A stretch of DNA of 21,623 nucleotides from the IMG/VR virus record IMGVR_UViG_3300030117_005017, positions 1 to 21,623 of that record; one strand, 5' to 3'. Positions 714 to 20,129 of this stretch are shown piece after piece. The notes below the pieces were generated by a model. That model ran no database searches and had not been told where the DNA came from. It saw only the letters and a list, made by a program, of their open reading frames with translations. The translations under genes were made by a program, and so were the position numbers. The first letter of the stretch is position 1; every line of letters begins with the position of its first letter. The stretch comes from a virus.

Positions 714-2008
714 TAGTAGAATCTCACAGAGAATGGAAAAAATTTATGGTGGAGTTTGGTAAAGAAAACTCTATTGTGATTCCGATAGCTTGTGACAAAA
801 ATAAACATCCGATTGATACCAACCTTTGTTTACTTTATATTAAAATGTTAGATGGTTCTCTTGAAGAATATGTGCTACCATTCAGACATTCTGATGCTAT
901 AAACTTAAAACCTAGCTATATGAATAAAACAGTAACAGATAGGGATGTTTTTACATATGATAAAAAAAAGTTATTGCATTTCTTAAAGTGGGATAATATA
1001 ACAGATATGCAAATGCACTACTATATGTCTAAAAACCAACCATTACCAATTGATGATGTAACCACTGGTGCTCACGAATATTTTTATAGAATTCATTATA
1101 AAACTAAGAATATTAACTGTATCATCCCAATGATGAAACATATAGAGTGGTGTAGAAAACTAGTCGACTATTTGAAACTAACTGTTTTTATAAAACCAGC
1201 AAACAGTAGTGTGTTGAAAATTTACAATGATGATGTTATTGAAAATTTACAACAGATAGAACAAAATGGATTACAAACTACAAAAGGTATGGTGTATTCA
1301 GAGTATAATCCATACACATCTACAGGCCGCCCATCAAATAGATTCGGTGGTATGAACTTTGCTGCTCTAAACAAAAAAGATGGAAGTCGTAAACAATTCA
1401 TAAGTAGATTTGGTAAAGATGGTATGTTGATAGAAATGGATTATGATGCTTATCATCTGAGGCTAATTGGTGATGAGATAGGTTATGACTTTCCAAAGGG
1501 CTCTGTGCACAAACATATGTCAAAACTTTATGGTGTCGGATACGATGAAGCAAAATCACTGTCATTCCAATATTTGTACGGACACATACCTGAAGAAGTT
1601 TTGAAAAAGAATCCATTCTTTAGAAAAGTTCAAAAATACATAGATGCTGTTTGGAGTGAATATAAATCATCAAAATCCATTAAATCTAATATTTATAGTA
1701 AGAGGATAAGACAAGAAAACCTTTCAGATATGAATAAGAATAAGGTTTTCAATTATCTTATTCAGTTGACAGAAACAGAAAGTAATATGAGAATGTTGTC
1801 AGAGCTAATACCAAAGATAAGCAGTTATAAAAGTAAATTAGTTCTATATAGCTACGACTCATTTCTGTTTGACTTTTATTTGCCAGATGGTTTAAATTAC
1901 ATACATAAAGTAAAGAAAATCATCGAACAGAGTGGTAAGTTTCCAGTAAAAGTTGGTAAGGGTTGGAACTACCACGAAATGAAAGATATAACAAGGAAAT
2001 TTAAATGA
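707..2008 (+). CDS. Divergent family A DNA polymerase-like protein
   Basis: The C-terminal half has the order of motifs of a Pol I-type palm: TGRPSNR at 206-212 (family TGRLSS), motif A as DYDAYHLR at 245-252 (family DYSQIELR), motif B as a lysine at 283 followed by YLYG at 289-292, and motif C as YSYDSF with Asp384 (family VHDE). Both metal-binding aspartates are kept. However, the motif A glutamate is His, the motif B arginine four residues before the lysine is Tyr, and the motif C His and Glu are Tyr and Ser. The first 120 residues only faintly resemble a proofreading domain. At 433 residues it is shorter than Pol I. I chose the TTG start at 707 because GAGG (696-699) lies seven bases upstream; ATG 746 is the alternative. 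A complete family B polymerase lies downstream, so this is probably accessory or specialised. Confidence 0.75.
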   Translation: MVIVESHREWKKFMVEFGKENSIVIPIACDKNKHPIDTNLCLLYIKMLDGSLEEYVLPFRHSDAINLKPSYMNKTVTDRDVFTYDKKKLLHFLKWDNITDMQMHYYMSKNQPLPIDDVTTGAHEYFYRIHYKTKNINCIIPMMKHIEWCRKLVDYLKLTVFIKPANSSVLKIYNDDVIENLQQIEQNGLQTTKGMVYSEYNPYTSTGRPSNRFGGMNFAALNKKDGSRKQFISRFGKDGMLIEMDYDAYHLRLIGDEIGYDFPKGSVHKHMSKLYGVGYDEAKSLSFQYLYGHIPEEVLKKNPFFRKVQKYIDAVWSEYKSSKSIKSNIYSKRIRQENLSDMNKNKVFNYLIQLTETESNMRMLSELIPKISSYKSKLVLYSYDSFLFDFYLPDGLNYIHKVKKIIEQSGKFPVKVGKGWNYHEMKDITRKFK

Positions 2009-3873
2009 TTACAGATTTAAATAAGATTATGAATGAATGGGCTTTTCGTACTCACAATGGTAAACCTAATCCAAAGAGTATGGCTCATCAAATTATATTA
2101 GAAGGAGTTCTAAAAGATTTTGGTTGGAGTTTGGAACAAAGAAATGAATTGCTCAATAGTGATTCATTTCAGATAACTGAAAAAAGAAAGCCGGGTGAGG
2201 TTTGGAAAACACAAACTGGATGGGCAGGTTTGAAACCTGGAGAGGAAACAGCTCAGTATGGCATGGCAAATAAAAAAACTGCTCAGAAATACGTTGCTGG
2301 TGAGGAAGAAGATGATGAGAAATCCGATAAAAAACCAGATGAGAAATCTCAAGAAAAAGATAAAGAATTAAATCAAGATATTGATACTCTTGAACAAGAA
2401 ACTTTTGCTAGAACTGAAACCGAACCCGATGATGATAATTTTGAAGAATCCAATTCAGAATATGTTGCAGAAAATACTATTGATTTTGAAAGAGAGATGG
2501 AAGAAAGATTTAAACCACATAAATTTCCAAAAAAATATTTAAAAACTCTTGGTAGAATGTTAAATACAAAATTAGATGCTTCTATGAAAGATAGTAGTGG
2601 AAAAGTAAAACCACCTATTGGGCAATTAAGTCATTATACATTAGAAGGTGGTGCTGGTGAGATAAGGTCACAGGCTGGTGAATTGATAGGTATGATAGCA
2701 AGTTCTATTCAAGATCCTAACCAAAGAGAAGAATTTCTAAAAATGTTAGAAGAACATATGGATGCTAATGATGATGGATTAATTGCAGATAAGAGTTGGG
2801 TAAAGGCAGCTAGACAAAATAATCAAGCAATAGATGATTCATTGAATACTGAATTTCCTGATGGTTATGAAATAGTTGCTAGTGCTTGGGATGTAGATAG
2901 TGAAGCTGAAGCTTTAGGAATGAATCCACCAATACAGAAGAATAAAGGTGAATCAACCGACCAATATATGAAGGTAAAAACTCCAGATGGAAAAGCACAT
3001 TTGGTTGAGATATCTCTGAAGAAAGATAAAAATATAAGATTGACAAATACATCACCTGAAGCCTTGATGAATTTTGATAACTTTACTGAAGATGAAAGGA
3101 AAGAACTTCAGAAGAATATGAGAGGTAAGGGTATTCAAGATGTACCACCGCCAGGTGATGGAAAGACAGATATTGACGATGTTAGATTTTCCTCTTACCA
3201 AAAATATCAACAAGAAAAATACAATGAGTTTGGAAAACAAAATAAAAGTGAAATTATTAAATTAATAAAAGAGGGTAAAATTAGTTCTTCAACATTAAAG
3301 AAATTAAAAATCGATTCTAACAATCCTGAAGAAAGATTAGATGAGATATTAAAAGGTGGACGAGGAACTGGTAAAACTCGTGATAAAAATAAACTATTTT
3401 TACAAGCTGCTCAACAATTACCAGATGGTCAGGCTGTTATTGATGATGTAAATGAAAATACAAAGAAAGTATTATCTAATATAGCAACTGCTATAGGTGT
3501 AGAACCAGTAAAGACTAAAATGTTAGAATCTGTAAAAGAAAAATTACCATTGAGAAGTTTAGTCTCTGGTGAAGAATCTATGGCCGTTGGTGATTTTATG
3601 ATGGATAAAAGAACTATGAAAAAAGTATTTGGTACTGATGACTTTGAAAAAATTAAAGATGATTTACAGGTTGATATAGGTCCACCTCCAGTTATTAAGT
3701 ATGTTGCAAAAGGTGGTGGTGAACCAATAGTAGTGGCAAATATAAAAATAAGAGAAGATGGTGTGGGTTATGGCGCTGCTATGAAATTTGATATGGTGTT
3801 GTCTAATGATTTCACACAGAAATGTAAAGATGCACATGAAAGTGAGTTGAATCAAGCAAAAAGGGCTAGTTAA
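2005..3873 (+). CDS. Large phage protein of unknown function, possible nuclease-like core
   Basis: The start overlaps the previous stop as ATGA, so translation is probably coupled. The 622 residues fall into an N-terminal block with EWAFRTHNGKPNPKS (11-25), a highly charged Lys/Glu/Asp linker (about 98-150) that is probably disordered, and a structured C-terminal part. Around 319-340 there is an Asp, then VEISLKK (334-340). This spacing resembles the D...ExK core of PD-(D/E)XK nucleases, but the E-x-S-L-K form is not diagnostic. I recall similar long proteins in T4-like marine phages annotated only as hypothetical or structural; this is memory, not a search result. No signal peptide, membrane segment or cysteine cluster is visible. 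Function is unknown. Confidence 0.85.
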   Translation: MITDLNKIMNEWAFRTHNGKPNPKSMAHQIILEGVLKDFGWSLEQRNELLNSDSFQITEKRKPGEVWKTQTGWAGLKPGEETAQYGMANKKTAQKYVAGEEEDDEKSDKKPDEKSQEKDKELNQDIDTLEQETFARTETEPDDDNFEESNSEYVAENTIDFEREMEERFKPHKFPKKYLKTLGRMLNTKLDASMKDSSGKVKPPIGQLSHYTLEGGAGEIRSQAGELIGMIASSIQDPNQREEFLKMLEEHMDANDDGLIADKSWVKAARQNNQAIDDSLNTEFPDGYEIVASAWDVDSEAEALGMNPPIQKNKGESTDQYMKVKTPDGKAHLVEISLKKDKNIRLTNTSPEALMNFDNFTEDERKELQKNMRGKGIQDVPPPGDGKTDIDDVRFSSYQKYQQEKYNEFGKQNKSEIIKLIKEGKISSSTLKKLKIDSNNPEERLDEILKGGRGTGKTRDKNKLFLQAAQQLPDGQAVIDDVNENTKKVLSNIATAIGVEPVKTKMLESVKEKLPLRSLVSGEESMAVGDFMMDKRTMKKVFGTDDFEKIKDDLQVDIGPPPVIKYVAKGGGEPIVVANIKIREDGVGYGAAMKFDMVLSNDFTQKCKDAHESELNQAKRAS

Positions 3874-4274
3874 TGAAAACTCAATTGCTCTGTACCTTTA
3901 CTGATAAAGGAAGTTTAGATGATGTTGTAGAACTTATTATGGAATGTAATGATATACTCTATAATAAGATTTATGTTTTTGAAAATGGTAAAGATAAATC
4001 ACAATTAATTTGCACATACAATGTAGAGTATGAGGATGACCATATTTCAGAAGATATACCAAATACAATTTCACTTCATAGAAAAAAACAAACTAACACA
4101 TTATACACTATTAATGCTCTGAATGAAGTTATAAGAGAACTCAACAATGGTATATTAGATAAGAAATTTTCTATACCTTGGGATGACTATTATAATTCTT
4201 TACTACTTACGAATGATGATGGCTTGAGTAAAATACCTACAAAAATATATAAAATTATTAATACAAAAGATTGA
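3873..4274 (+). CDS. Conserved hypothetical protein, 133 aa
   Basis: The ATG shares its A with the TAA stop of the preceding gene (TAATG), indicating coupled translation. The product begins MKTQLLCTFTDKGSLDD and has an alternating hydrophobic pattern that suggests a small alpha/beta fold, with KIYVFENGKDKSQLICTYNV around residues 32-51. I have the impression of short proteins with similar N-termini in T4-like cyanophages and pelagic phages, without assigned function. There are no recognisable catalytic motifs, membrane segments or metal sites. It is the last gene before a promoter-containing gap. Confidence 0.8.
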   Translation: MKTQLLCTFTDKGSLDDVVELIMECNDILYNKIYVFENGKDKSQLICTYNVEYEDDHISEDIPNTISLHRKKQTNTLYTINALNEVIRELNNGILDKKFSIPWDDYYNSLLLTNDDGLSKIPTKIYKIINTKD

Positions 4275-4367: not shown

Positions 4368-5126
4368 ATGGATATTAATTCTATTCGTAAGCGTCTTAAT
4401 CAGCTTCAAACAACAAACAATCGAACTTCAAACCTATGGAAACCTCAACCAGGAAAACAAGTAATTAGAGTTTTACCTTATAAACATAATAAGGATAATC
4501 CTTTTATTGAATTGTTCTTTCATTTTGGTTTGAATAATAAAACCTATCTTTCACCAATCACATTTGGTCGTCCAGACCCAATTGAAGAGTTTGCACAAAA
4601 ACTTAAAACAAGCGGTAACAGAGAAGAGTATCAGATGGCTCGTAAATTAGAGTCAAAGATGAGAACCTTTGCACCAGTAATCGTTCGTGGTGAAGAAACA
4701 CAAGGTGTTCGTTTTTGGGGATTTGGTAAGACGGTCTATCAAGAATTACTTTCAGTTATAGCAGATCCAGACTATGGTGATATTACAGATGCCGTAAGCG
4801 GTCGTGATGTATCAGTAGAGTTTATTACTGCTGAAGAAAGTGGTGCTTCATTTCCTAAAACTTCTATTCGTGTAAAGCCTAATCAAACTCCAATCGTTGA
4901 GGATAAGGCACAGCTAGAGGCTATGTTGGATAATCAAAAAGACATTACTGAATTATATCAGGAACTCTCATATGAAGAGCTTACAGATGTGTTAAATCAA
5001 TGGTTGAATCCAGAAGCTTCTTCTGATGATAAAGAAGAAACTGCACCTGTGTCGGCTGTTGCTGCTGAATCAGCAAATACTGTTGAAGATGCCAGTGCCG
5101 CATTTGATGAGTTGTTTAGTAAGTAA
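4368..5126 (+). CDS. gp32-like single-stranded DNA-binding protein
   Basis: The product would coat single-stranded DNA during replication and recombination, working with UvsX and the polymerase. The 252 residues follow the T4 gp32 plan. There is a basic N-terminus for cooperativity (IRKRLNQL, 6-13). The core contains WKPQPGKQVIRVLPY (24-38) and SPITFGRPDPIEEFAQK (62-78), which aligns with the gp32 TTFG...DP segment. The C-terminal tail is acidic and flexible and ends AAFDELFSK, the usual partner-binding tail. There is no cysteine anywhere, so the zinc ligands of T4 gp32 are missing. A strong AAGGAG precedes the ATG. Its arginine codons are largely CGT, unlike the AGA-rich neighbours, which fits high expression. 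The gene starts a cluster running through the tRNA to the helicase. Confidence 0.88.
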   Translation: MDINSIRKRLNQLQTTNNRTSNLWKPQPGKQVIRVLPYKHNKDNPFIELFFHFGLNNKTYLSPITFGRPDPIEEFAQKLKTSGNREEYQMARKLESKMRTFAPVIVRGEETQGVRFWGFGKTVYQELLSVIADPDYGDITDAVSGRDVSVEFITAEESGASFPKTSIRVKPNQTPIVEDKAQLEAMLDNQKDITELYQELSYEELTDVLNQWLNPEASSDDKEETAPVSAVAAESANTVEDASAAFDELFSK

Positions 5127-5139
5127 ATAAAGTGTAGTT

Positions 5140-5212
5140 GGGGCTGTAGCTCAGTTGGGAGAGCGCTACACTTGCACTGTAGAGGTCGCAGGTTCGATTC
5201 CTGTCAGCTCCA
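5140..5212 (+). tRNA. tRNA-Ala (anticodon UGC)
   Basis: The 73 bases fold as a full cloverleaf. The acceptor GGGGCTG pairs with CAGCTCC through one G-U. The D arm is GCTC/GAGC. The anticodon stem CTACA/TGTAG encloses loop CTTGCAC, giving anticodon TGC at 5173-5175. The T arm is GCAGG-TTCGATT-CCTGT. The discriminator base is A5212. The 3' CCA is not encoded, so host tRNA nucleotidyltransferase must add it. It lies 13 bases after the SSB stop and 21 bases before the UvsX start, inside the operon, so it probably has to be cut out of a polycistronic transcript. Confidence 0.97.
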
Positions 5213-5233
5213 CTATTTAAATAGGAGAAACAA

Positions 5234-8915: not shown

Positions 8916-10925
8916 ATGGAAAAGTTTACATTATCAGAAAATTTTATAAGCAAATATAAAAGGAAAAAGGCTCCTTTTGGTTTTAATGGATTAGGTGAAT
9001 TGGTTTATATGAGAACCTATTCTCGAATCAAAGAAGATGGTAAAAACGAAAGATGGTGGGAGACAGTACAGAGAGTTGTAGAAGGTACTTACAACATGCA
9101 AAAGAATTGGATTGAATCACATCAATTAGGGTGGAATCCGTGGCAAGCTCAGAAGAGTGCTCAAGATATGTATGAGCGAATTTTTACAATGAAGTTTTTG
9201 CCTCCTGGTCGCGGTCTGTGGGCGATGGGAACGCCTATCACAGAGAAAAAGGGATTATACGCCGCCCTAAACAATTGTGCTTTTGTATCTACAAAAACAC
9301 TCAAAGAAGACTACGCAAAACCATTCTGTTTCCTTATGGATGCCAGTATGTTAGGTGTCGGTGTGGGGTTTGATACAAAAGGTGCTGGTGAAATAGTAAT
9401 TAAAGGTATTGACAAAAGTAGAGATGAACAGACTTACAAAATACCTGATACACGTGAGGGTTGGGTGGAGTCTTTGAAACTTCTTTTAGAGAGTTACTTT
9501 CATGGTCAGGCACCGATGGAGTTTGACTATACAAAGATACGGCCTGCAGGTGAACCCATAAGTGGTTTTGGTGGTGTTTCAAGTGGTCACGAACCACTAA
9601 TGGAAGTGCACGAAGACATCAGAAAGGTATTAGAAAAAAATAGTGGAGAACCAATTTCAGTAACAACAATTGTAGACATAATGAATCTAATCGGTAAGTG
9701 TGTTGTTGCAGGTAATGTTAGAAGAACTGCTGAAATAGTTTTTGGCGAACCAGATTCAGAGGAGTATTTGGATTTAAAGAATTATGAAGTTAATCCAGAT
9801 AGAGAACAATTCGGTTGGACATCTAATAACAGTATCTTTGCTGAATTAGGAATGGATTACACCGAAGCTGCAAAAAGAATTGTAGATAATGGAGAGCCTG
9901 GTTTTGCCTGGTTACACAATATGAGAAAATATTCTCGTATGAAGAATGGTGGAGACAACAAAGACCATAGGGTTATGGGGGGTAATCCCTGTTTGGAACA
10001 ATCTTTAGAGAGTTATGAGTTATGTTGTTTAGTAGAAACATTTCCTGATAATCACATAGACTTTGAAGATTATGCGAGAACTCTAAAGTATGCTTATCTT
10101 TACGCTAAAACAGTTACATTAGGAAGAACTCATTGGAGTGATACCAATAGAGTTATGTTAAGAAACAGAAGAATCGGTTGTTCTGTAAGTGGTGTTGCAC
10201 AATTTATTACACATAGAGGAATTAATTCGTTAAAGGAGTGGTTAAATGATGGATATGATGTCATTCAAGAATGGGATGATGTATACTCTGATTGGTTTGC
10301 TGTACCAAAGTCAATTAAAACTACATCTGTTAAACCTAGCGGTACAGTATCGCTTTTGGCTGGAGCGACTCCTGGTCTTCACTATCCTGAAAGTCGGTTT
10401 TATATTAGACGGATAAGATTATCAAAACATTCAGAATTATTAGAACCGTTAAAAAAAGCTGGATATAAATTAGAACCAGCATTCGGTTCTGAGGAAACAA
10501 CAATGGTTGTAGAAATACCCGTTGATGTTGGCGAGGGAATTAAAACAGCAGCTGAACTTTCGATTTGGGAACAATTCAGTCTAGCTGCTTTTCTTCAACG
10601 ACATTGGGCAGACAATCAAGTAAGTTGCACGGTTACATTCAATCCAGAAACAGAAGCAAATCAGATTGCTCCGTGTTTGAATTACTATCAGTATCACTTG
10701 AAGGGTATCAGTTTATTACCAAGACATGATTATGGTGCTTATAAGCAAATGCCATATGAATCTATTGATGAAAAGGAATATAATAAACAAATAAAAAAAC
10801 TCAGTAAATTATCATTCGGTGTTATCAAGAATGAAGAAGCGGATATAGATAAGTTTTGTAACAATGATTCTTGTGAAGTGCCATCGTTGTCAGGCGATAA
10901 CGATGACCAAGAATATGCCAACTAA
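8916..10925 (+). CDS. nrdJ: Adenosylcobalamin-dependent (class II) ribonucleotide reductase, monomeric
   Basis: This enzyme reduces ribonucleotides to deoxyribonucleotides, using coenzyme B12 to generate a thiyl radical, so it needs no oxygen and no separate radical subunit. At 669 residues it resembles the monomeric triphosphate reductase of Lactobacillus leichmannii. It has FLPPGRGLWAMGT (94-106) and the redox cysteine in LNNCAF (Cys121). The active-site block is NPCLEQ with Cys359 and Glu361, with Cys370/371 in YELCCLVETFP. KPSGTVSLLAGATPG forms the phosphate-binding region. The C-terminal redox pair is CNNDSC (648 and 653). All expected catalytic residues are present. No small-subunit gene is nearby. 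It lies between the helicase and the TonB-dependent receptor. Confidence 0.94.
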   Translation: MEKFTLSENFISKYKRKKAPFGFNGLGELVYMRTYSRIKEDGKNERWWETVQRVVEGTYNMQKNWIESHQLGWNPWQAQKSAQDMYERIFTMKFLPPGRGLWAMGTPITEKKGLYAALNNCAFVSTKTLKEDYAKPFCFLMDASMLGVGVGFDTKGAGEIVIKGIDKSRDEQTYKIPDTREGWVESLKLLLESYFHGQAPMEFDYTKIRPAGEPISGFGGVSSGHEPLMEVHEDIRKVLEKNSGEPISVTTIVDIMNLIGKCVVAGNVRRTAEIVFGEPDSEEYLDLKNYEVNPDREQFGWTSNNSIFAELGMDYTEAAKRIVDNGEPGFAWLHNMRKYSRMKNGGDNKDHRVMGGNPCLEQSLESYELCCLVETFPDNHIDFEDYARTLKYAYLYAKTVTLGRTHWSDTNRVMLRNRRIGCSVSGVAQFITHRGINSLKEWLNDGYDVIQEWDDVYSDWFAVPKSIKTTSVKPSGTVSLLAGATPGLHYPESRFYIRRIRLSKHSELLEPLKKAGYKLEPAFGSEETTMVVEIPVDVGEGIKTAAELSIWEQFSLAAFLQRHWADNQVSCTVTFNPETEANQIAPCLNYYQYHLKGISLLPRHDYGAYKQMPYESIDEKEYNKQIKKLSKLSFGVIKNEEADIDKFCNNDSCEVPSLSGDNDDQEYAN

Positions 10926-11022
10926 ATTTCACATACAAATGCGGACAGGCAGATGGCACACCTGTAAAAAAATGTGTCTTTCGTTAATGAATAAGCAAGG
11001 AGATGATTATGAATTATCGTAA
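10903..11022 (+). CDS. Possible short ORF, 39 aa, overlapping RNR and receptor ends
   Basis: This open frame runs from ATG 10903 (or ATG 10915, 35 aa) out of the RNR 3' end, across the intergenic region, and stops after the receptor start. From ATG 10915 the product begins MPTKFHIQMRTGRWHTCKKM and ends QGDDYELS. The composition looks protein-like rather than random, and it fills the only gap between two large genes. However, no good ribosome site precedes either ATG. It may be a remnant of a small phage gene interrupted where the receptor gene begins. Real, remnant or chance are all possible. Confidence 0.3.
   Translation: MTKNMPTKFHIQMRTGRWHTCKKMCLSLMNKQGDDYELS
10998..11002 (+). promoter_or_regulatory. 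Ribosome binding site deciding the receptor start
   Basis: AGGAG ends immediately before ATG 11003, too close for initiation there, and lies six bases before ATG 11009. This makes ATG 11009 the likely start and gives a clean signal peptide beginning MNYRNLIVSF. Confidence 0.8.
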
Positions 11023-13735
11023 TCTAATAGTGTCATTTATGATGACAACAGGATTGTTCGCGCAGTCTATTGTTGGAATCGTACATGGACTAAAACCACT
11101 TGAAGGAGCTAATATTGTCGTTGAAGGAACAGAACTTGGTTCGGTTTCTAATGACGAAGGTATGTATACCATATCTGATGTTTCACTTGGAACATATGAT
11201 ATAACTGCTTCTTTTATTGGTTACTCTTCAGTGACTAAATCTTTGGTTGTTGGAGAGGGTGACAATGTAGTTGACTTTCATTTGGAAGTTGACGCGGTTG
11301 TATTGTCAGCGCTTGAAGTTCTCGCTTCTCGTGCGGATAAAACAACACCTGTGGCTTACACAACTGTAGATAAAGCTGAAATGGAAGTTCGTCTTGGTTC
11401 ACAAGACATTCCAATGATTCTTAATACTACACCAAGTGTATATGCCACTCAACAAGGTGGTGGTGCGGGTGATGCCCGTATCAATGTTCGAGGTTTTAAC
11501 CAAAGAAATGTTGCTGTTATGATTAATGGTGTTCCCCAAAATGATATGGAGAACGGATGGGTTTATTGGTCTAATTGGGATGGTGTTGGTGATGCCACAT
11601 CTTCCATTCAGATGCAAAGAGGTCTATCAGCTGTTAATCTTGCTACACCTTCTATTGGTGGAACTATGAACATCATCACAGACCCTGCTGCTCTTGAAAA
11701 GGGTGGTAAGTTCAAACAAGAGATTGGTGTTAGTGGTTTCTTAAAATCAACACTAAACTATAATTCAGGTCTAATCAAAGATAAACTAGCGCTTAGTGGA
11801 ACAATAGTTCGTAAGACTGGTGATGGTTTAATCGATGGAACTTGGACAGATGCTTGGGCATATTACTTCGGTGGTTCTTATGCAGTTTCGGATGACCAAC
11901 GATTTGAGTTATATGCTATAGGCGCACCACAGCGACATGGACAGAACCTATATAAACAGAATATTGCAACTTATTCACAAGAGCTTGCAGGAAGTATCGA
12001 TGGGTATGATGATTCCGCTTATGTTGCTGGTAATAAGTTTGAACATGAAGCTGGTAGGTTCTTTAATCAAAATTGGGCACCCGTGGATGAATCATACACA
12101 GGTAAACAGTATTGGTATATGTATGGTGCAAACATTGTGGATAGGTATAGTCCTACTCTTTTGAACGAAAGAGAGAACTTCTTTCACAAACCACTTGTAA
12201 ACCTTAACCATTTTTACGATATCAATGAAGATTTAAGATTATCATCTGTTCTTTATTGGTCAGGCGGTTCGGGTGGTGGAACTGGCACTTATGGAAGTGT
12301 AAAAAGACAACCTGCCATCGAAGGTAATCAATGGTGGGCAAGTTCACCTTGGAGATGGGATTGGAATGCCGAGATTGCTGAGAACTCTGCTAACATAGAT
12401 TCTGCTTGGTCAGAAACAGAAAATCGTTCAACAGGTATTCTTCGTAACTCAATCAACAGACAAAACACTTATGGTTTGATTTCTAAATTAAACTATGATG
12501 TTTCAGATGAACTTGAGGTTCAAGTAGGATTGGATTGGAGAACTGCTGGTATTGAACACGCTCGTGAGGTTCGTGATTTACTTGGTGGAGACTATTATGT
12601 AGACTACGCTGATGACAATGCACCTGATGGTAAGAAAGTTGGGTTGGGTGACATAATCGCTTATCACAATGAAACAACAGTAGATTGGATTGGTACATTT
12701 GCTCAAGGTAAATACACAACTGATAAATTCAATGTTTATGGTATGGGTGGATTGTCAACAATAAAATATACCTATCATGACCACTTTGCAGTTGATGCTG
12801 ATGTAGTTGAGGCTAGTCCTATAACTACCTTTCAACTCAAGGGTGGTGTTGTGTATAATCTTGATGACAGATTATCAGCATTTGCTAATATTGGATATGT
12901 TCAGAAACCACCTATTTTAGATAATGTAATTGATTATGATGGAAATGTATCTACAAATCCAGATAATGAGAAGTTTTTATCTAATGAGATTGGTGGGGAA
13001 TACAAAAGTGGTAAGGTTGCTATTAAAGGTAGTTACTATAATACTCAATGGAATGATAGAAACCTTACTAAGTCTGTGACTACAGGTCAAGGTGATTCAG
13101 GTGATACCGATATCATTTACTTAACAGGCGTTAATCAATCACATTCTGGTGTAGAGGTTGAATCTAAGATTGCTCTTCATGAGATGGTAGACTTAGATAT
13201 TGCTGTGAGTGTGGGAGATTGGTATTTCGATGGGGATGCTAATGGTGATTACACAGAGATGGAGTACAATGATGATAATCAAATCATTGGACAAACTTCT
13301 ACTGAATATGAGTATGCTCTAAACAATCTAAAGGTTGGTGACATGCCACAAACTGCTTATGTTGGTGGACTCACATTAAAACCAATCAAAGGATTGAGTT
13401 TACAAGGACTTTACAGATGGTATGATGAACATTATGCTGATTGGAGTCCTGATGCACGTGAGGTTGATGGTGATGCTGACAGAGCACAAGTATGGAAATC
13501 ACCATCCTATGGTAAGTTAGACTTACATCTATCTTACAAACTACCAGAAATTGCTGGTCTTGACTTGACTCTTTCAGGTCATGTCTTTAATGCTCTTGAC
13601 GATATTTATGTTCAAGACGCTGTGGATAACAGTAGGTATAATGGGTATGGTGACAAACTTCACCTAGCTCATAATGCTGAAGTATTCTTGGGTACACCAA
13701 GAAGTTTCAACTTAGGACTTTCTGTTAATTTCTAA
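11009..13735 (+). CDS. TonB-dependent outer-membrane receptor with carboxypeptidase-regulatory-like domain
   Basis: This family imports scarce nutrients across the outer membrane using TonB energy. From ATG 11009 the protein is 908 residues. The signal peptide is MNYRNLIVSFMMTTGLFA with cleavage near 18-19. A carboxypeptidase-regulatory-like beta domain (about 21-93) has LEGANIVVEGTELGSVSNDE and GMYTISDV. The likely TonB-box/linker is around LEVLASRAD (102-110). The plug (about 115-225) contains INVRGFNQRNVAVMINGVP and GGTMNIIT. A large beta barrel follows, ending LGLSVNF with the terminal Phe needed for outer-membrane assembly. The plug wording is that of Bacteroidota-type receptors. There is no frameshift or truncation. 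No SusD, TonB, ExbB or ExbD gene is present, so it would rely on host TonB. Substrate is unknown. This is a bacterial gene inside a phage replication region. Use of both CGT and AGA arginine codons does not look foreign. Confidence 0.95.
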   Translation: MNYRNLIVSFMMTTGLFAQSIVGIVHGLKPLEGANIVVEGTELGSVSNDEGMYTISDVSLGTYDITASFIGYSSVTKSLVVGEGDNVVDFHLEVDAVVLSALEVLASRADKTTPVAYTTVDKAEMEVRLGSQDIPMILNTTPSVYATQQGGGAGDARINVRGFNQRNVAVMINGVPQNDMENGWVYWSNWDGVGDATSSIQMQRGLSAVNLATPSIGGTMNIITDPAALEKGGKFKQEIGVSGFLKSTLNYNSGLIKDKLALSGTIVRKTGDGLIDGTWTDAWAYYFGGSYAVSDDQRFELYAIGAPQRHGQNLYKQNIATYSQELAGSIDGYDDSAYVAGNKFEHEAGRFFNQNWAPVDESYTGKQYWYMYGANIVDRYSPTLLNERENFFHKPLVNLNHFYDINEDLRLSSVLYWSGGSGGGTGTYGSVKRQPAIEGNQWWASSPWRWDWNAEIAENSANIDSAWSETENRSTGILRNSINRQNTYGLISKLNYDVSDELEVQVGLDWRTAGIEHAREVRDLLGGDYYVDYADDNAPDGKKVGLGDIIAYHNETTVDWIGTFAQGKYTTDKFNVYGMGGLSTIKYTYHDHFAVDADVVEASPITTFQLKGGVVYNLDDRLSAFANIGYVQKPPILDNVIDYDGNVSTNPDNEKFLSNEIGGEYKSGKVAIKGSYYNTQWNDRNLTKSVTTGQGDSGDTDIIYLTGVNQSHSGVEVESKIALHEMVDLDIAVSVGDWYFDGDANGDYTEMEYNDDNQIIGQTSTEYEYALNNLKVGDMPQTAYVGGLTLKPIKGLSLQGLYRWYDEHYADWSPDAREVDGDADRAQVWKSPSYGKLDLHLSYKLPEIAGLDLTLSGHVFNALDDIYVQDAVDNSRYNGYGDKLHLAHNAEVFLGTPRSFNLGLSVNF

Positions 13736-13748
13736 AATGGTAAATTTA

Positions 13749-13771
13749 GGGGGGATTTTTCCCCCCTTTTT
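13749..13771 (+). terminator. Strong intrinsic terminator after the receptor gene
   Basis: GGGGGG (13749-13754), a six-base ATTTTT loop, CCCCCC (13761-13766) and TTTTT form a perfect G/C stem with a T tract, 13 bases after the receptor stop. It is the only such structure I see in the window. It would isolate the receptor transcript from the polymerase operon, which has its own promoter a few bases downstream. Confidence 0.93.
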
Positions 13772-13844: not shown

Positions 13845-16337
13845 ATGTATCAGAATATTTACTTTGATATGAAAACGCGAAAAGTTCATATTTGGGATGA
13901 TGATAAAGGTTATTATGTTATTCCATATAAGAAGTACGCATATGTAAAAGATAGAAACGGCTCTCATGTTTCTCTCTATGGTGATAAACTTAGAAAGGTA
14001 TTTAAGTTCGATGCCGACACACCAAACTTATTTGAATCCGATGTGCCACCTGAAACACGTGTATTGGTAGACCAATATGGAGATTCAGAGGAGCTATCTA
14101 ATAATCACAATATAATGATGATTGACATTGAGGTAGAAGTAACAGAGGGATTCCCAATGCCAGAGGATGCTAACAATAAGATTACTTCTATTGCTACATA
14201 CGACTCTGTTAGTGATACTTATTACGCTTTTGTGTTGGATGATAAAGATAGACTAACACTAAAATCAAAAGATAATGTAATAGTAGAGAAATTTAATACA
14301 GAGTATGAACTTTTACAAAAATTTATGGTGGAGTATCTGAAATGGAAACCAACCATCATTACAGGTTGGAACATAGATACATTTGATATGCCATATCTAT
14401 ACAACAGAATGTGTAAGGTGGTTGGTAAAAATGTTGCTGATATGATTTCACCAATTCAGACAGCTCAATGGAACAAACATAGAAAGAGATATATGTTTGC
14501 CGGTGTCAGTTGTTTAGATTACTATGCTTTATACAGATTGTTTACTTACACTCAATTATCATCTTACAGATTGGATGCCGTTGCAGAAAAAGAGTTAGGT
14601 GAAAACAAAATAGAGTATGATGGAACACTTAATGATTTATATGAAAATGATATAAATAAGTTTGTCGAATATAACATACATGATGTCAGACTTGTGAAAA
14701 GATTGCATGACAAATTAGATTTTATTGATATGGCTAGAGGTGTATGTCACGTAGGTCATGTTCCTTATGAAGATGTTTACTTCTCATCTCGTTACTTAGA
14801 AGGGGCTATATTGGTTTACCTAAAAAACTTAGGTGTTGTTGCTCCTAACAAGCCACCAAGAGTTGAGAAAAAAGATGACGATAAATTTGCTGGTGCTTAT
14901 GTACAACCACCACAAAGAGGTAAACATGATTGGGTGTTTGACTTAGATATTACCTCTATGTATCCATCAGTAATTATGTCTTTAAATATATCACCAGAAA
15001 CAAAAATTGGAAAACTTTCAGGTTGGGATGCTGAGGAGTTCTTGAAGGGCACGCCAAAAACTTATACCCTCATATCCAATGGTGTAGAAAAAGGAAAACT
15101 TACAGAAAAAGAGTTGAAAGATTTCTTTAACAAAAATAAGGTTTCAGTATCTTCCAATGGTGTATTATATCGTAGTGATAAAAAAGGTTTGATTCCTGCA
15201 TTGTTGGAGAAATGGTTTGATACTCGTGTGGAGTATAGAAAGTTAATGAAGAAGTTTGGTGATGCTGGTAATAACGAAAAGTATACATATTTCAAAAGTC
15301 GCCAGTTGATTCAAAAAGTTGTTCTAAACTCATTGTATGGTGTATTAGGTTTGCCAGTATTTAGATTCTATGATTTAGATAATGCTGAGGCTACCACACT
15401 AACAGGTCAGGAACTAATAAAATTTACTAAAAAGATTGGTAACTATTTTTACAACAATGCTTTGAATACTGATGAGGACTACTGTATTTACATCGATACA
15501 GATTCCGTATTTTATTCAGCACTACCATTGGTGCAAAAAAGATTTCCAAATAAAAAATTCACAGAAACACAGATGAGTAAGGTTATTTTGGATGTAGCTG
15601 ATGAAATGCAAACATATCTAAATAAGTCATACGACTACTTTGCTAGTAAGTTTCTAAACTTAGACAAACATAGGTTTGAGATAAAGCAGGAATTGATTGC
15701 TAAGAGTGGTTTATTTATTGTGAAAAAACGATATGGTATGAAGATTATCAATGACAATGGAGTAAAGGTAAACAAACTGCATGTAAAGGGTTTGGACTTA
15801 GTTCGTAGTAATTTTCCAAAGGCTATGGGTGAACTACTAAAGAGTGTTTTAGAAGATATACTGGCTAATGTACCAAAGGATAAGATAGACGAAAGGATAA
15901 TAAACTTTAAGGAGTCTATGAAATTAGTAGACTTTGATAGGATAGCTATGCCGACAGGTGTAAAAAATATGAAAAAATATAGTTCTGGTAAAAATGGTCA
16001 CTTTACTCAGTTTGCCAAAGGTGCTCCAGCACATGTTAAAGCAGCACTAACTTACAATGACTTATTGGAACACTTTGGTGTTGATGGTAAGTATGAAAAG
16101 ATAAGTAATTCCGAAAAGATAAAATGGGTTTATTTAAGACAAAATGAGTTTGGATTAGATTCTTGTGGTTACAAAGGTTATGAAGACCCACCTGAGGTAA
16201 TTAATTTTATAAAACAATACATAGACCACAAAAAGATGTATGCTCAAATGTTAGAGAAGAAGATAATGATGTTTTATGAATCTTTGAAATGGAATGAGCC
16301 TGTGAATAAAAAAACATCTATGGAAAGATTTTTTTGA
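13845..16337 (+). CDS. Family B replicative DNA polymerase, gp43-like
   Basis: This is the replicative polymerase with proofreading. The 830 residues carry intact 3'-5' exonuclease motifs: Exo I MIDIE (Asp94, Glu96), Exo II GWNIDTFD (174-181), Exo III YNIHD (276-280). The polymerase motifs are also intact: motif A LDITSMYPS (367-374), motif B KVVLNSLYG (491-499) and motif C YIDTDS (549-554). The thumb region extends to the C-terminus, which ends TSMERFF. That short hydrophobic/aromatic tail resembles the clamp-binding C-terminal peptide of T4 gp43 and PIP-type motifs (inference). The N-terminal MYQNIYFDMKTRKVHIWDD supports the ATG chosen despite the distant ribosome site. It is the first gene after promoter copy A. 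Confidence 0.97.
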   Translation: MYQNIYFDMKTRKVHIWDDDKGYYVIPYKKYAYVKDRNGSHVSLYGDKLRKVFKFDADTPNLFESDVPPETRVLVDQYGDSEELSNNHNIMMIDIEVEVTEGFPMPEDANNKITSIATYDSVSDTYYAFVLDDKDRLTLKSKDNVIVEKFNTEYELLQKFMVEYLKWKPTIITGWNIDTFDMPYLYNRMCKVVGKNVADMISPIQTAQWNKHRKRYMFAGVSCLDYYALYRLFTYTQLSSYRLDAVAEKELGENKIEYDGTLNDLYENDINKFVEYNIHDVRLVKRLHDKLDFIDMARGVCHVGHVPYEDVYFSSRYLEGAILVYLKNLGVVAPNKPPRVEKKDDDKFAGAYVQPPQRGKHDWVFDLDITSMYPSVIMSLNISPETKIGKLSGWDAEEFLKGTPKTYTLISNGVEKGKLTEKELKDFFNKNKVSVSSNGVLYRSDKKGLIPALLEKWFDTRVEYRKLMKKFGDAGNNEKYTYFKSRQLIQKVVLNSLYGVLGLPVFRFYDLDNAEATTLTGQELIKFTKKIGNYFYNNALNTDEDYCIYIDTDSVFYSALPLVQKRFPNKKFTETQMSKVILDVADEMQTYLNKSYDYFASKFLNLDKHRFEIKQELIAKSGLFIVKKRYGMKIINDNGVKVNKLHVKGLDLVRSNFPKAMGELLKSVLEDILANVPKDKIDERIINFKESMKLVDFDRIAMPTGVKNMKKYSSGKNGHFTQFAKGAPAHVKAALTYNDLLEHFGVDGKYEKISNSEKIKWVYLRQNEFGLDSCGYKGYEDPPEVINFIKQYIDHKKMYAQMLEKKIMMFYESLKWNEPVNKKTSMERFF

Positions 16338-17116: not shown

Positions 17117-17881
17117 ATGGAGTCTTATGTAGACACCACAAGAGTATCAGTTCGACCAATCTACAAAGCATTGGCGAGAGATATAATTGAAAAGAATCAT
17201 TACAGTGGTAGGTTGTCCTCTTGTAGATATCCGTTAGGGGTATTTTATCAAACGGACAACCAACATCAATTCTTTGATGAGGCTGAAGAGAAACTAATTG
17301 GAGTAGCCTGTTATGGATTTCCAGTTGGTAGAAGAGTTATTGGTTCAATCTTTAGTGAAGAGATACTAGAAAATAAAAACATTTTGGAATTGACAAGACT
17401 GTATATAGATGATGGTTATGGTAAAAACATAGAGTCGCATGTTATCTCATCCACATTTAAATGGTTGAGAGAAAATGCTCCAAACATAAAAGTTTTAGTG
17501 TCCTACGCAGATCCTGAACAAAGTCATGATGGTGCTATCTATCAAGCCACTAATTGGATATATCAAGGTTGTGGTGACTTTCAGTTAGCACCAACATACT
17601 CTTTAAGAGTTAATGAAGAAGATGATTGGATGCACAGCAGAAGCGTATATTCAAAGTATGGTTCAGCTGCACCTAAGAATTTGATTAAAACCATAGGACA
17701 AACCTTTTGGTTGAAGAAAGAAGCCACAAAACATAGATATATTTATTTTTTAGGAAATAAAACAGAAAACAGAAAGTTTCGTAAAGTGATGAAACATCCT
17801 GAGATGAGATATCCGAAAAATTATGTACAAGAAGTTGAAATTACAAAAGTAGAGGTAGAAAATAACAAATGGGAAAATTAG
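17117..17881 (+). CDS. Mom-like GNAT-fold protein 1 (putative DNA modification)
   Basis: This resembles phage Mu Mom, a GNAT-fold protein that converts adenine in DNA to a carbamoylmethyl form that blocks restriction. Visible shared blocks are IIEKNHYSGR (23-32), LIGVACYGFP (60-69), ELTRLYIDD (91-99), SHVISSTFKWLR (107-118), VSYADPEQSHDGAIYQATNW (128-147), and a basic C-terminal region with FWLKKEATKHRYIYFL. The ATG immediately follows the clamp stop without an obvious ribosome site, suggesting translational coupling. The gene overlaps gp44 by 13 bases. It lies between clamp and clamp loader, where T4 has no gene. DNA modification is inferred from family resemblance. The exact chemical product cannot be read from sequence. 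Confidence 0.78.
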   Translation: MESYVDTTRVSVRPIYKALARDIIEKNHYSGRLSSCRYPLGVFYQTDNQHQFFDEAEEKLIGVACYGFPVGRRVIGSIFSEEILENKNILELTRLYIDDGYGKNIESHVISSTFKWLRENAPNIKVLVSYADPEQSHDGAIYQATNWIYQGCGDFQLAPTYSLRVNEEDDWMHSRSVYSKYGSAAPKNLIKTIGQTFWLKKEATKHRYIYFLGNKTENRKFRKVMKHPEMRYPKNYVQEVEITKVEVENNKWEN

Positions 17882-19055: not shown

Positions 19056-19491
19056 AAAGAAGAGTTTATTCGATCACATCAAACAGATAACAGATGTTCA
19101 GAACCCTAATTATTGGGATGAGATTTCTGATGATGATAAAAAGTCGTGGTCTAACTACATGGTTAACAGATTCTTATCTATGAAAATGGATTGGGTAGAG
19201 TTTGTTAATGAGGTACAGAAGTATTCTTTAGAGCCAGAACAGGTTTATAAAATTTACACAGATATACTGCCGAAAAAAAGACAATGGCTAAAGTATATCA
19301 AAGGAGATAAAAAGATGAAGTATCCAAAATGGGTATATGAAATAGTTGCTAAGCATCTACAATGTAGTATGAGAGAAGCTAGCGAGGCAGTAGATATGTA
19401 TGAATTGTCGCATGGTGGACAAGCAGAATTAGTAGACATACTTATTAAGTATGGTAAAACAGAGGATGAGTGTCGTAAGATTGGATTATGA
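19042..19491 (+). CDS. Clamp loader small subunit, gp62-like
   Basis: This is probably the single small subunit that completes the gp44 clamp-loader pentamer. The 149 residues have the gp62 pattern SLFDHIKQIT (8-17), DKKSWSNYMVNRFLSM (32-47), VQKYSLEPEQVYKIYTDILP (58-77) and YIKGDKK near 84-90. T4 gp62 is somewhat longer (187 aa). AAGGAAG at 19032-19038 precedes the ATG. Position after gp44 supports the call, since gp62 sequences diverge strongly. The stop overlaps the next start as ATGA. Confidence 0.82.
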   Translation: MATVKKKSLFDHIKQITDVQNPNYWDEISDDDKKSWSNYMVNRFLSMKMDWVEFVNEVQKYSLEPEQVYKIYTDILPKKRQWLKYIKGDKKMKYPKWVYEIVAKHLQCSMREASEAVDMYELSHGGQAELVDILIKYGKTEDECRKIGL

Positions 19492-20129
19492 GTGTTACCA
19501 ACTTTACTGTTGAAGAAATACCTAGAAAATCCATAGTTCAATTTATTGAAAAACATCACTATTCTCACAATGTAAATGGAGTGCAATCTTTGTATCACTT
19601 CGGATTATATGGTGAGGGCAACTTTGGTTTACCTAAAATGATTGGTGCTATGATGTATGCTATACCATCTATGCCAGCTACTGCTTCAAAATATAATCCA
19701 ATTAATCCTAATAAATGTTTAGAGCTAAGAAGACTTGTTTGTGTGGATGACACACCTAAAAATACCGAAAGTTATTTTATCGGAAAGACTTTCAAATGGT
19801 TAAAAAAGTATACTGATATGGAAGTTATAGTTTCATTTGCCGACCAACACTATGGTCATTCTGGCACAATTTACAAAGCAACTAACTTTGATTACTTAGG
19901 TGAAACTGCTGACGCTAGAGTATTAATCGTTGATGGTAAGGAAATGCACAGTAGGTCTCTAAATCAACTGAAGAGACCATATGGAAGAGAATTAAATCGT
20001 AGGTATAAAGCCGGTGATGAAAATATTTTTTGGAAGAAGAGAAAACCAAAACATATTTATGTTTACTATCTCAGTAAAAAAATCAAAAGACAAATAAAAA
20101 AGCTTGACTTTCAGCCTAAAAGTTCGTAG
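19488..20129 (+). CDS. Mom-like GNAT-fold protein 2 (putative DNA modification)
   Basis: This second protein of the Mom type is clearly different from the first. Shared blocks are FIEKHHYSHN (19-28), IGAMMYAIPS (52-61), ELRRLVCVDDTPKN (79-92), YFIGKTFKWLKK (96-107), VSFADQHYGHSGTIYKATNF (115-134) and EMHSRSLNQLKRPYG. It lacks the first protein's longer C-terminus and has a different loop between the HYS and IGA blocks. The start overlaps gp62 as ATGA. Its last codons and TAG stop coincide with promoter-like element copy B, so regulatory DNA overlaps coding DNA here. It occupies the position after gene 62 where T4 carries regA. Role in DNA modification is inferred. Confidence 0.76.
   Translation: MSVTNFTVEEIPRKSIVQFIEKHHYSHNVNGVQSLYHFGLYGEGNFGLPKMIGAMMYAIPSMPATASKYNPINPNKCLELRRLVCVDDTPKNTESYFIGKTFKWLKKYTDMEVIVSFADQHYGHSGTIYKATNFDYLGETADARVLIVDGKEMHSRSLNQLKRPYGRELNRRYKAGDENIFWKKRKPKHIYVYYLSKKIKRQIKKLDFQPKSS

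Follow-up and report, generated by a model that had tools for sequence, protein, structure and literature searches.

Why would a phage carry a complete outer-membrane receptor among its replication genes? The question is raised by a gene in a viral stretch of 21,623 nucleotides (the window), which a first-pass annotation had described as an intact 908-residue TonB-dependent receptor (TBDR) with a regulatory-like domain, plug, barrel and terminal Phe, placed between a phage ribonucleotide reductase and a phage DNA polymerase. That annotation had offered three roles, namely a boost to nutrient uptake, exclusion of competing phages and a decoy on lysis debris, and it had missed the pseudoknot leader, the dedicated terminator, the shuffling of the gene among phages and its natural deletion, as well as its origin in Marinimicrobia and the other cargo found in the same slot. 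The features of the locus are the following.

8916..10925, + strand: adenosylcobalamin-dependent (class II) ribonucleoside-triphosphate reductase (RNR), the upstream flank
10906..10913, + strand: 8-bp repeat ACCAAGAA, upstream copy in the 3' end of the RNR gene, left deletion breakpoint
10945..10978, + strand: predicted H-type RNA pseudoknot leader, with helices P1 (10945-10949/10961-10965) and P2 (10955-10960/10973-10978) and an A-rich loop (10966-10972)
10979..11008, + strand: A/U-rich, G-poor spacer that includes the Shine-Dalgarno sequence AAGGAG (10997-11002)
11009..13735, + strand: TBDR gene, 908 amino acids, recognised by open frame, Pfam, AlphaFold2 and motif; signal peptide (residues ~1-20), CarboxypepD_reg (21-92), TonB-box-like LEVLASR (102-108), plug (113-231), barrel (232-907) and terminal Phe
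13696..13703, + strand: 8-bp repeat ACCAAGAA, downstream copy in the 3' end of the TBDR gene, right deletion breakpoint
13749..13771, + strand: dedicated intrinsic terminator of the TBDR cassette, GGGGGGATTTTTCCCCCC followed by a T run
13845..16337, + strand: phage DNA polymerase B (gp43-like; PHROG 262), the downstream flank

The open reading frame at 11003-13735 is uninterrupted, and the Shine-Dalgarno sequence favours the ATG at 11009 as the start, which gives 908 residues. Pfam recognises CarboxypepD_reg and Plug domains (Plug PF07715, E 5e-14, over the cut-off), the AlphaFold2 model is a beta barrel of ~22 strands (pLDDT 76; the plug is modelled poorly), and the C-terminal residue is Phe; reading frame, Pfam and model thus agree on the anatomy first described. 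The signal peptide was called by eye only, and the candidate TonB box LEVLASR, recognised by its motif, sits correctly ahead of the plug. Foldseek places the model among TonB-dependent receptor structures with E values to 4e-27, the top matches being Fiu, PqqU/YncD and FhuA at just 11-14% identity. A sequence search of solved structures with the single protein returned no match, and a search with a TBDR profile returned mainly N-terminal and plug matches. With plug, barrel and TonB box all recognisable, the feature is, on sequence and modelled fold, a member of the TonB-dependent receptor/transporter class, for which transport is predicted. Two narrower memberships were rejected: SusC/RagA, because no NCBIfam SusC model matched and no SusD gene adjoins it in the window (the only place to which the SusD statement refers, host-locus neighbours having been clustered for context), and BtuB, because no BtuB family model matched and BtuB is not among the 50 best folds.

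The surroundings of the gene are those of a phage. The RNR scores over the NCBIfam equivalog cut-off for adenosylcobalamin-dependent RTPR, the polymerase falls in PHROG 262 and the stretch is a virus record, all of which bear out the position reported earlier. The same replication region encodes ThyX, gp32, UvsX, exonuclease, helicase, clamp-loader and Mom-like proteins. The two Mom-like DNA modification genes of the window lie at 17117-17881 and 19488-20129, its gp32 gene at 4368-5126 and its tRNA-Ala at 5140-5213. Because a related 164.8-kb record carries portal, T4-type major head, head-tail adaptor and baseplate genes, the TBDR-bearing phages are T4-like.

The viral collection holds 307 relatives of the TBDR. 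The 80 of these that were retrieved are 74-86% identical, and nearly all that are long enough have the order helicase, RNR, TBDR, polymerase. When the sample was anchored on the RNR, the TBDR was present in 61 of 72 determinable loci and absent from 11 (~15%), with eight further loci that end too early left out of the 72. Since dozens of independent IMG/VR contigs share the RNR-TBDR-polymerase order, an assembly chimera is excluded on synteny, without recourse to reads. The first-pass annotation had suggested that other phage contigs be searched for this order, with the absence of the gene from related phages as a refutation; related phages commonly have it at this very site. A TBDR in a phage, of which that annotation knew no standard module, also has some precedent: a SusC-type receptor is reported from the marine megaphage Mar_Mega_1 and from LR745206 and is proposed to raise uptake in infection (PMC9723777). 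Those genomes resemble ours in carrying a receptor with a proposed uptake role, but they belong to another phage type, and no leader is described for them (PMC9723777). The listed megaphages match the window TBDR distantly, at ~27-28% over the N-terminal quarter, and an INPHARED search with the TBDR gave distant matches only (~30%).

The RNR-polymerase slot also houses glutamine synthetase and lipoprotein genes and, as judged by eye, a dUTPase-like and a glycosyltransferase-like gene, the latter without a Pfam match. Glutamine synthetase precedes the TBDR at loci L174, L191, L016 and L076, follows it at L026, L034 and L042, and occupies the slot at L192:10024-11028; it is a recurrent, nutrient-related companion whose Marinimicrobia homologues reach 58% identity. 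A small putative lipoprotein lies directly 3' of the TBDR in L001 (166 aa), L004, L010, L020 and L030, and a tRNA-like gene stands at the usual TBDR site in L206, L208 and L215. Elsewhere in related phages, the TBDR-less sibling L300 (G005) encodes a fused cytidylyltransferase and PEP mutase (L300:10945-13350), suggesting phosphonate metabolism, with a carbamoyltransferase nearby (L300:7761-9383). L299 (G005) encodes a 583-aa protein that matches the NTPase and finger domains of the bacterial DNA polymerase III alpha subunit (L299:8049-9800), and this phage also has its own family-B polymerase.

Selection and exchange have both marked the gene. Among pairs with dS of 0.1-0.8, the range to which the comparison was limited, dS being saturated in distant pairs, the TBDR has a median dN/dS of 0.15 and a maximum of 0.24, with the plug most constrained; the comparison values for RNR, helicase, polymerase and UvsX are 0.055-0.07. 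By this measure the viral TBDR is under purifying selection, in keeping with the earlier argument from its intact 2.7-kb frame. Across 40 dereplicated loci, helicase and UvsX distances track those of the polymerase (0.78), whereas TBDR distances are uncorrelated with them (rho 0.04, Mantel p 0.36); the RNR is intermediate, and TBDR distances correlate weakly with it (rho 0.24, Mantel p 0.02). Being out of step with the replication genes, the TBDR has therefore been exchanged among phages. A terminator-like hairpin follows it at every locus inspected. Variable presence at a fixed site, expression signals of its own and an incongruent history make it a phage cargo (moron/AMG) cassette. One virus has lost it. 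The 95.9-kb record L141, whose flanks are 99.4% and 98.3% identical to the window, lacks 2790 bp and retains the final ~30 nt of the TBDR frame and the terminator, fused to the end of the RNR gene at ACCAAGAA. This remnant identifies a secondary loss and not a pre-insertion site. The deletion alters the three last residues of the RNR, and the absence of the TBDR from so near a relative means that the gene is dispensable.

The source of the gene lies in a bacterial phylum. In a GTDB scan, cellular relatives of the TBDR came nearly all from Marinimicrobia MAGs (52-74% identity). The other matches, L082 (Flavobacteriales MAG) and L128 (Euryarchaeota MAG), contain phage genes and are phage contigs of the TBDR-bearing lineage misbinned into public MAGs. 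The receptor tree that had been proposed in the first-pass annotation nests the viral TBDRs as one clade inside the Marinimicrobia orthologues with support 1.0, the sole intruder being the MAG contig L083. This Marinimicrobia MAG contig has a TBDR at 986-3733, on a long branch within the viral clade, and a second, partial TBDR in tandem at 3900-4262; the phage leader is absent from it. The host genomes inspected have a single orthologue at 65-69% identity, with the next paralogue at no more than 39%, and the orthologue was detected in 70 of 149 draft Marinimicrobia genomes (E 1e-150). On these sequence relationships, the viral TBDR is derived from a single-copy Marinimicrobia orthologue. The Marinimicrobia receptors (e.g. 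L084-L087) share domains, TonB-box region, plug and length with the viral ones, but their genes have no pseudoknot leader and stand in unrelated contexts, and no informative neighbour was recognised when these contexts were read for a clue to the substrate. The TBDR, the glutamine synthetase (58%) and the tRNA-Ala (88%) indicate that the TBDR-bearing phages probably infect Marinimicrobia (SAR406). Marinimicrobia genomes searched with the phage genes yielded no phage of the TBDR clade and one 37% relative only, and a search of them with the phage RNR gave one distant match.

What sets the phage genes apart from the host gene is an RNA element. Of 89 distinct viral TBDR genes, 88 follow the leader, GCGGACAGGCAGACGACACACCTGTAGAAAAATGTGTC or a variant of it (87 were found by pattern and L080 by eye), and the remaining one, L012, is cut at the contig end. 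In an alignment of 65 sequences, from a set assembled partly by pattern with variable paired positions left free or mismatch-tolerant, 98% of the cells of the two interleaved helices are paired, against 18-63% in slid controls, and six of the 11 pairs have changes on both sides; one of the five measures in shuffle tests, the number of pair types, was not exceptional. Minimum-free-energy folding (z 0.1) is uninformative here, because the folding program is unable to form pseudoknots. Compensatory change in the interleaved helices supports the assignment of the leader as an H-type RNA pseudoknot. It is bound closely to one gene: the TBDR lies downstream in 151 of the 152 unique cases that could be judged, and the remaining one is a decayed copy ahead of a glycosyltransferase-like gene. 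Scanned with a model of the leader, each phage genome with a TBDR yields a single significant copy, and the sibling that lacks the gene yields none; the pattern is absent from 244 Marinimicrobia genomes, and the model finds no copy at 30 host TBDR loci. The distance from leader to start codon is 24-39 nt, of which the part before the Shine-Dalgarno sequence is 51% A and 6% G. An Rfam search with three members, to E 10, gave no on-register match. As judged from these searches, the pseudoknot leader is phage-specific and new, with no counterpart in host genes and no Rfam family, and it looks like a new regulatory RNA family. A literature search on the leader, phage TBDRs and Marinimicrobia viruses returned nothing closer, with most subscription journals outside its coverage.

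How such a leader might act can be judged from known elements. preQ1-I is likewise a small pseudoknot of the H type, and its third loop is A-rich. The sole riboswitch match of the leader was to preQ1, an out-of-register match of 15 bits (E 0.67) in one of the three members. The RF00522 gathering score was not reached, the P2 helix of the leader is longer and covaries, and its Shine-Dalgarno sequence lies beyond the fold; identity with preQ1-I was rejected. That the leader nevertheless senses the imported nutrient as a small-molecule riboswitch, instead of acting as a protein operator or stabilising the mRNA, is a reading we find doubtful though worth keeping in view: the compact H-type pseudoknot, an architecture also used by the preQ1-I and SAM-II aptamers, and an A-rich loop invariant across 65 sequences agree with it, whereas the missing on-register Rfam match and a Shine-Dalgarno sequence 12-27 nt beyond the fold do not. 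In the translational operator of T4 gene 32, a ~28-nt pseudoknot is joined by an unstructured tract that covers the ribosome-binding site (PMC535899). The TBDR leader has the same layout, with a 5' pseudoknot of ~30 nt, an A/U-rich unstructured tract and a ribosome-binding site in a T4-like phage mRNA, a likeness that is structural only. The T4 operator precedes an SSB gene and the TBDR leader a transporter gene, and, as the element is missing ahead of the gp32 gene of the window, the leader is not a true gene 32 operator.

We think it rather probable that the TBDR is a captured host transporter cassette, expressed in infection under pseudoknot control, that sustains or raises nutrient import. 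A T4-like marine phage lineage would have acquired the single-copy TonB-dependent outer-membrane transporter of Marinimicrobia (SAR406) and kept it between RNR and DNA polymerase as a cassette of pseudoknot leader, open reading frame and terminator. During infection, the phage-made transporter would team with the TonB/ExbBD machinery of the host, and import of its normal substrate would continue or rise after host gene shut-off. The phage-specific pseudoknot in the 5' leader would set TBDR expression, most likely at translation, with a protein or small molecule binding the knot and the unstructured spacer relaying this binding to the ribosome-binding site, by analogy with the T4 gene 32 operator. 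The analysis directly shows the anatomy of the receptor, its descent from the host clade, the purifying selection on it, its movement between phages, its later loss in one of them and a paired leader exclusive to the TBDR; host identity, transport activity, substrate, timing and leader action are the predicted parts of the explanation. With a working-looking Marinimicrobia-type transporter behind a phage-only RNA, these viruses probably produce and regulate an uptake protein of their own in infection.

Conservation of the protein bears on the choice among roles. Plug identity is 93% among viruses and 90% between virus and host, the TonB-box region is almost invariant across both, and the extracellular loops vary no more than the rest of the protein, with hardly any fixed virus/host differences. 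Conserved plug and TonB box with undiversified loops fit an energised transporter that keeps the host's substrate, and they disfavour an altered, phage-escaping surface. Of the three roles first proposed, a boost to uptake is therefore the best fit, and the decoy has no specific support. Superinfection exclusion, in which the phage TBDR would replace or dilute a host receptor used by rival phages, we regard as unlikely. Phages are known to use TBDRs such as FhuA as receptors, the Foldseek matches include structures of T5 pb5-FhuA and Llp-FhuA, and the lipoprotein gene right after the TBDR at some loci recalls T5 Llp, which blocks FhuA, in position only; TBDR-bearing phages also have glycosyltransferase-like genes, and shuffling of the kind seen here is frequent in arms-race genes. 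Yet the loop divergence expected of exclusion is missing, both against the host and among phages, and a plug and TonB-box region conserved to host level would be unnecessary for it. Import of cobalamin for the adjoining B12-dependent RNR is improbable: this RNR lies directly 5' of the leader in nearly all cases and its distances, unlike those of the polymerase, are weakly followed by the TBDR, but BtuB matches neither by family model nor by fold, no cobalamin riboswitch lies near phage or host TBDR genes, and there are phages that have this RNR and no TBDR. A host gene picked up accidentally, or joined to the phage in assembly, and useless to it would accord with the loss in the sibling virus and is otherwise hardly credible for an ancient single viral clade under purifying selection that recurs in independent contigs, has its own terminator and stands behind a covarying leader specific to phages.

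The TBDR is a clear example of an outer-membrane transporter that viruses carry as a common, selected gene, and it links phages that have their own regulatory RNA to an uncultivated marine phylum. The system allows a direct test of whether phages reshape nutrient uptake by the cells they infect, a natural deletion mutant being at hand for contrast, and the ligand of the leader could disclose the imported substrate. We put forward tentatively that a phage-invented pseudoknot senses a metabolite or a phage protein and governs the captured transporter; if this is true, a new class of regulatory RNA governs the nutrient import that viruses drive in a bacterial phylum not yet cultivated.
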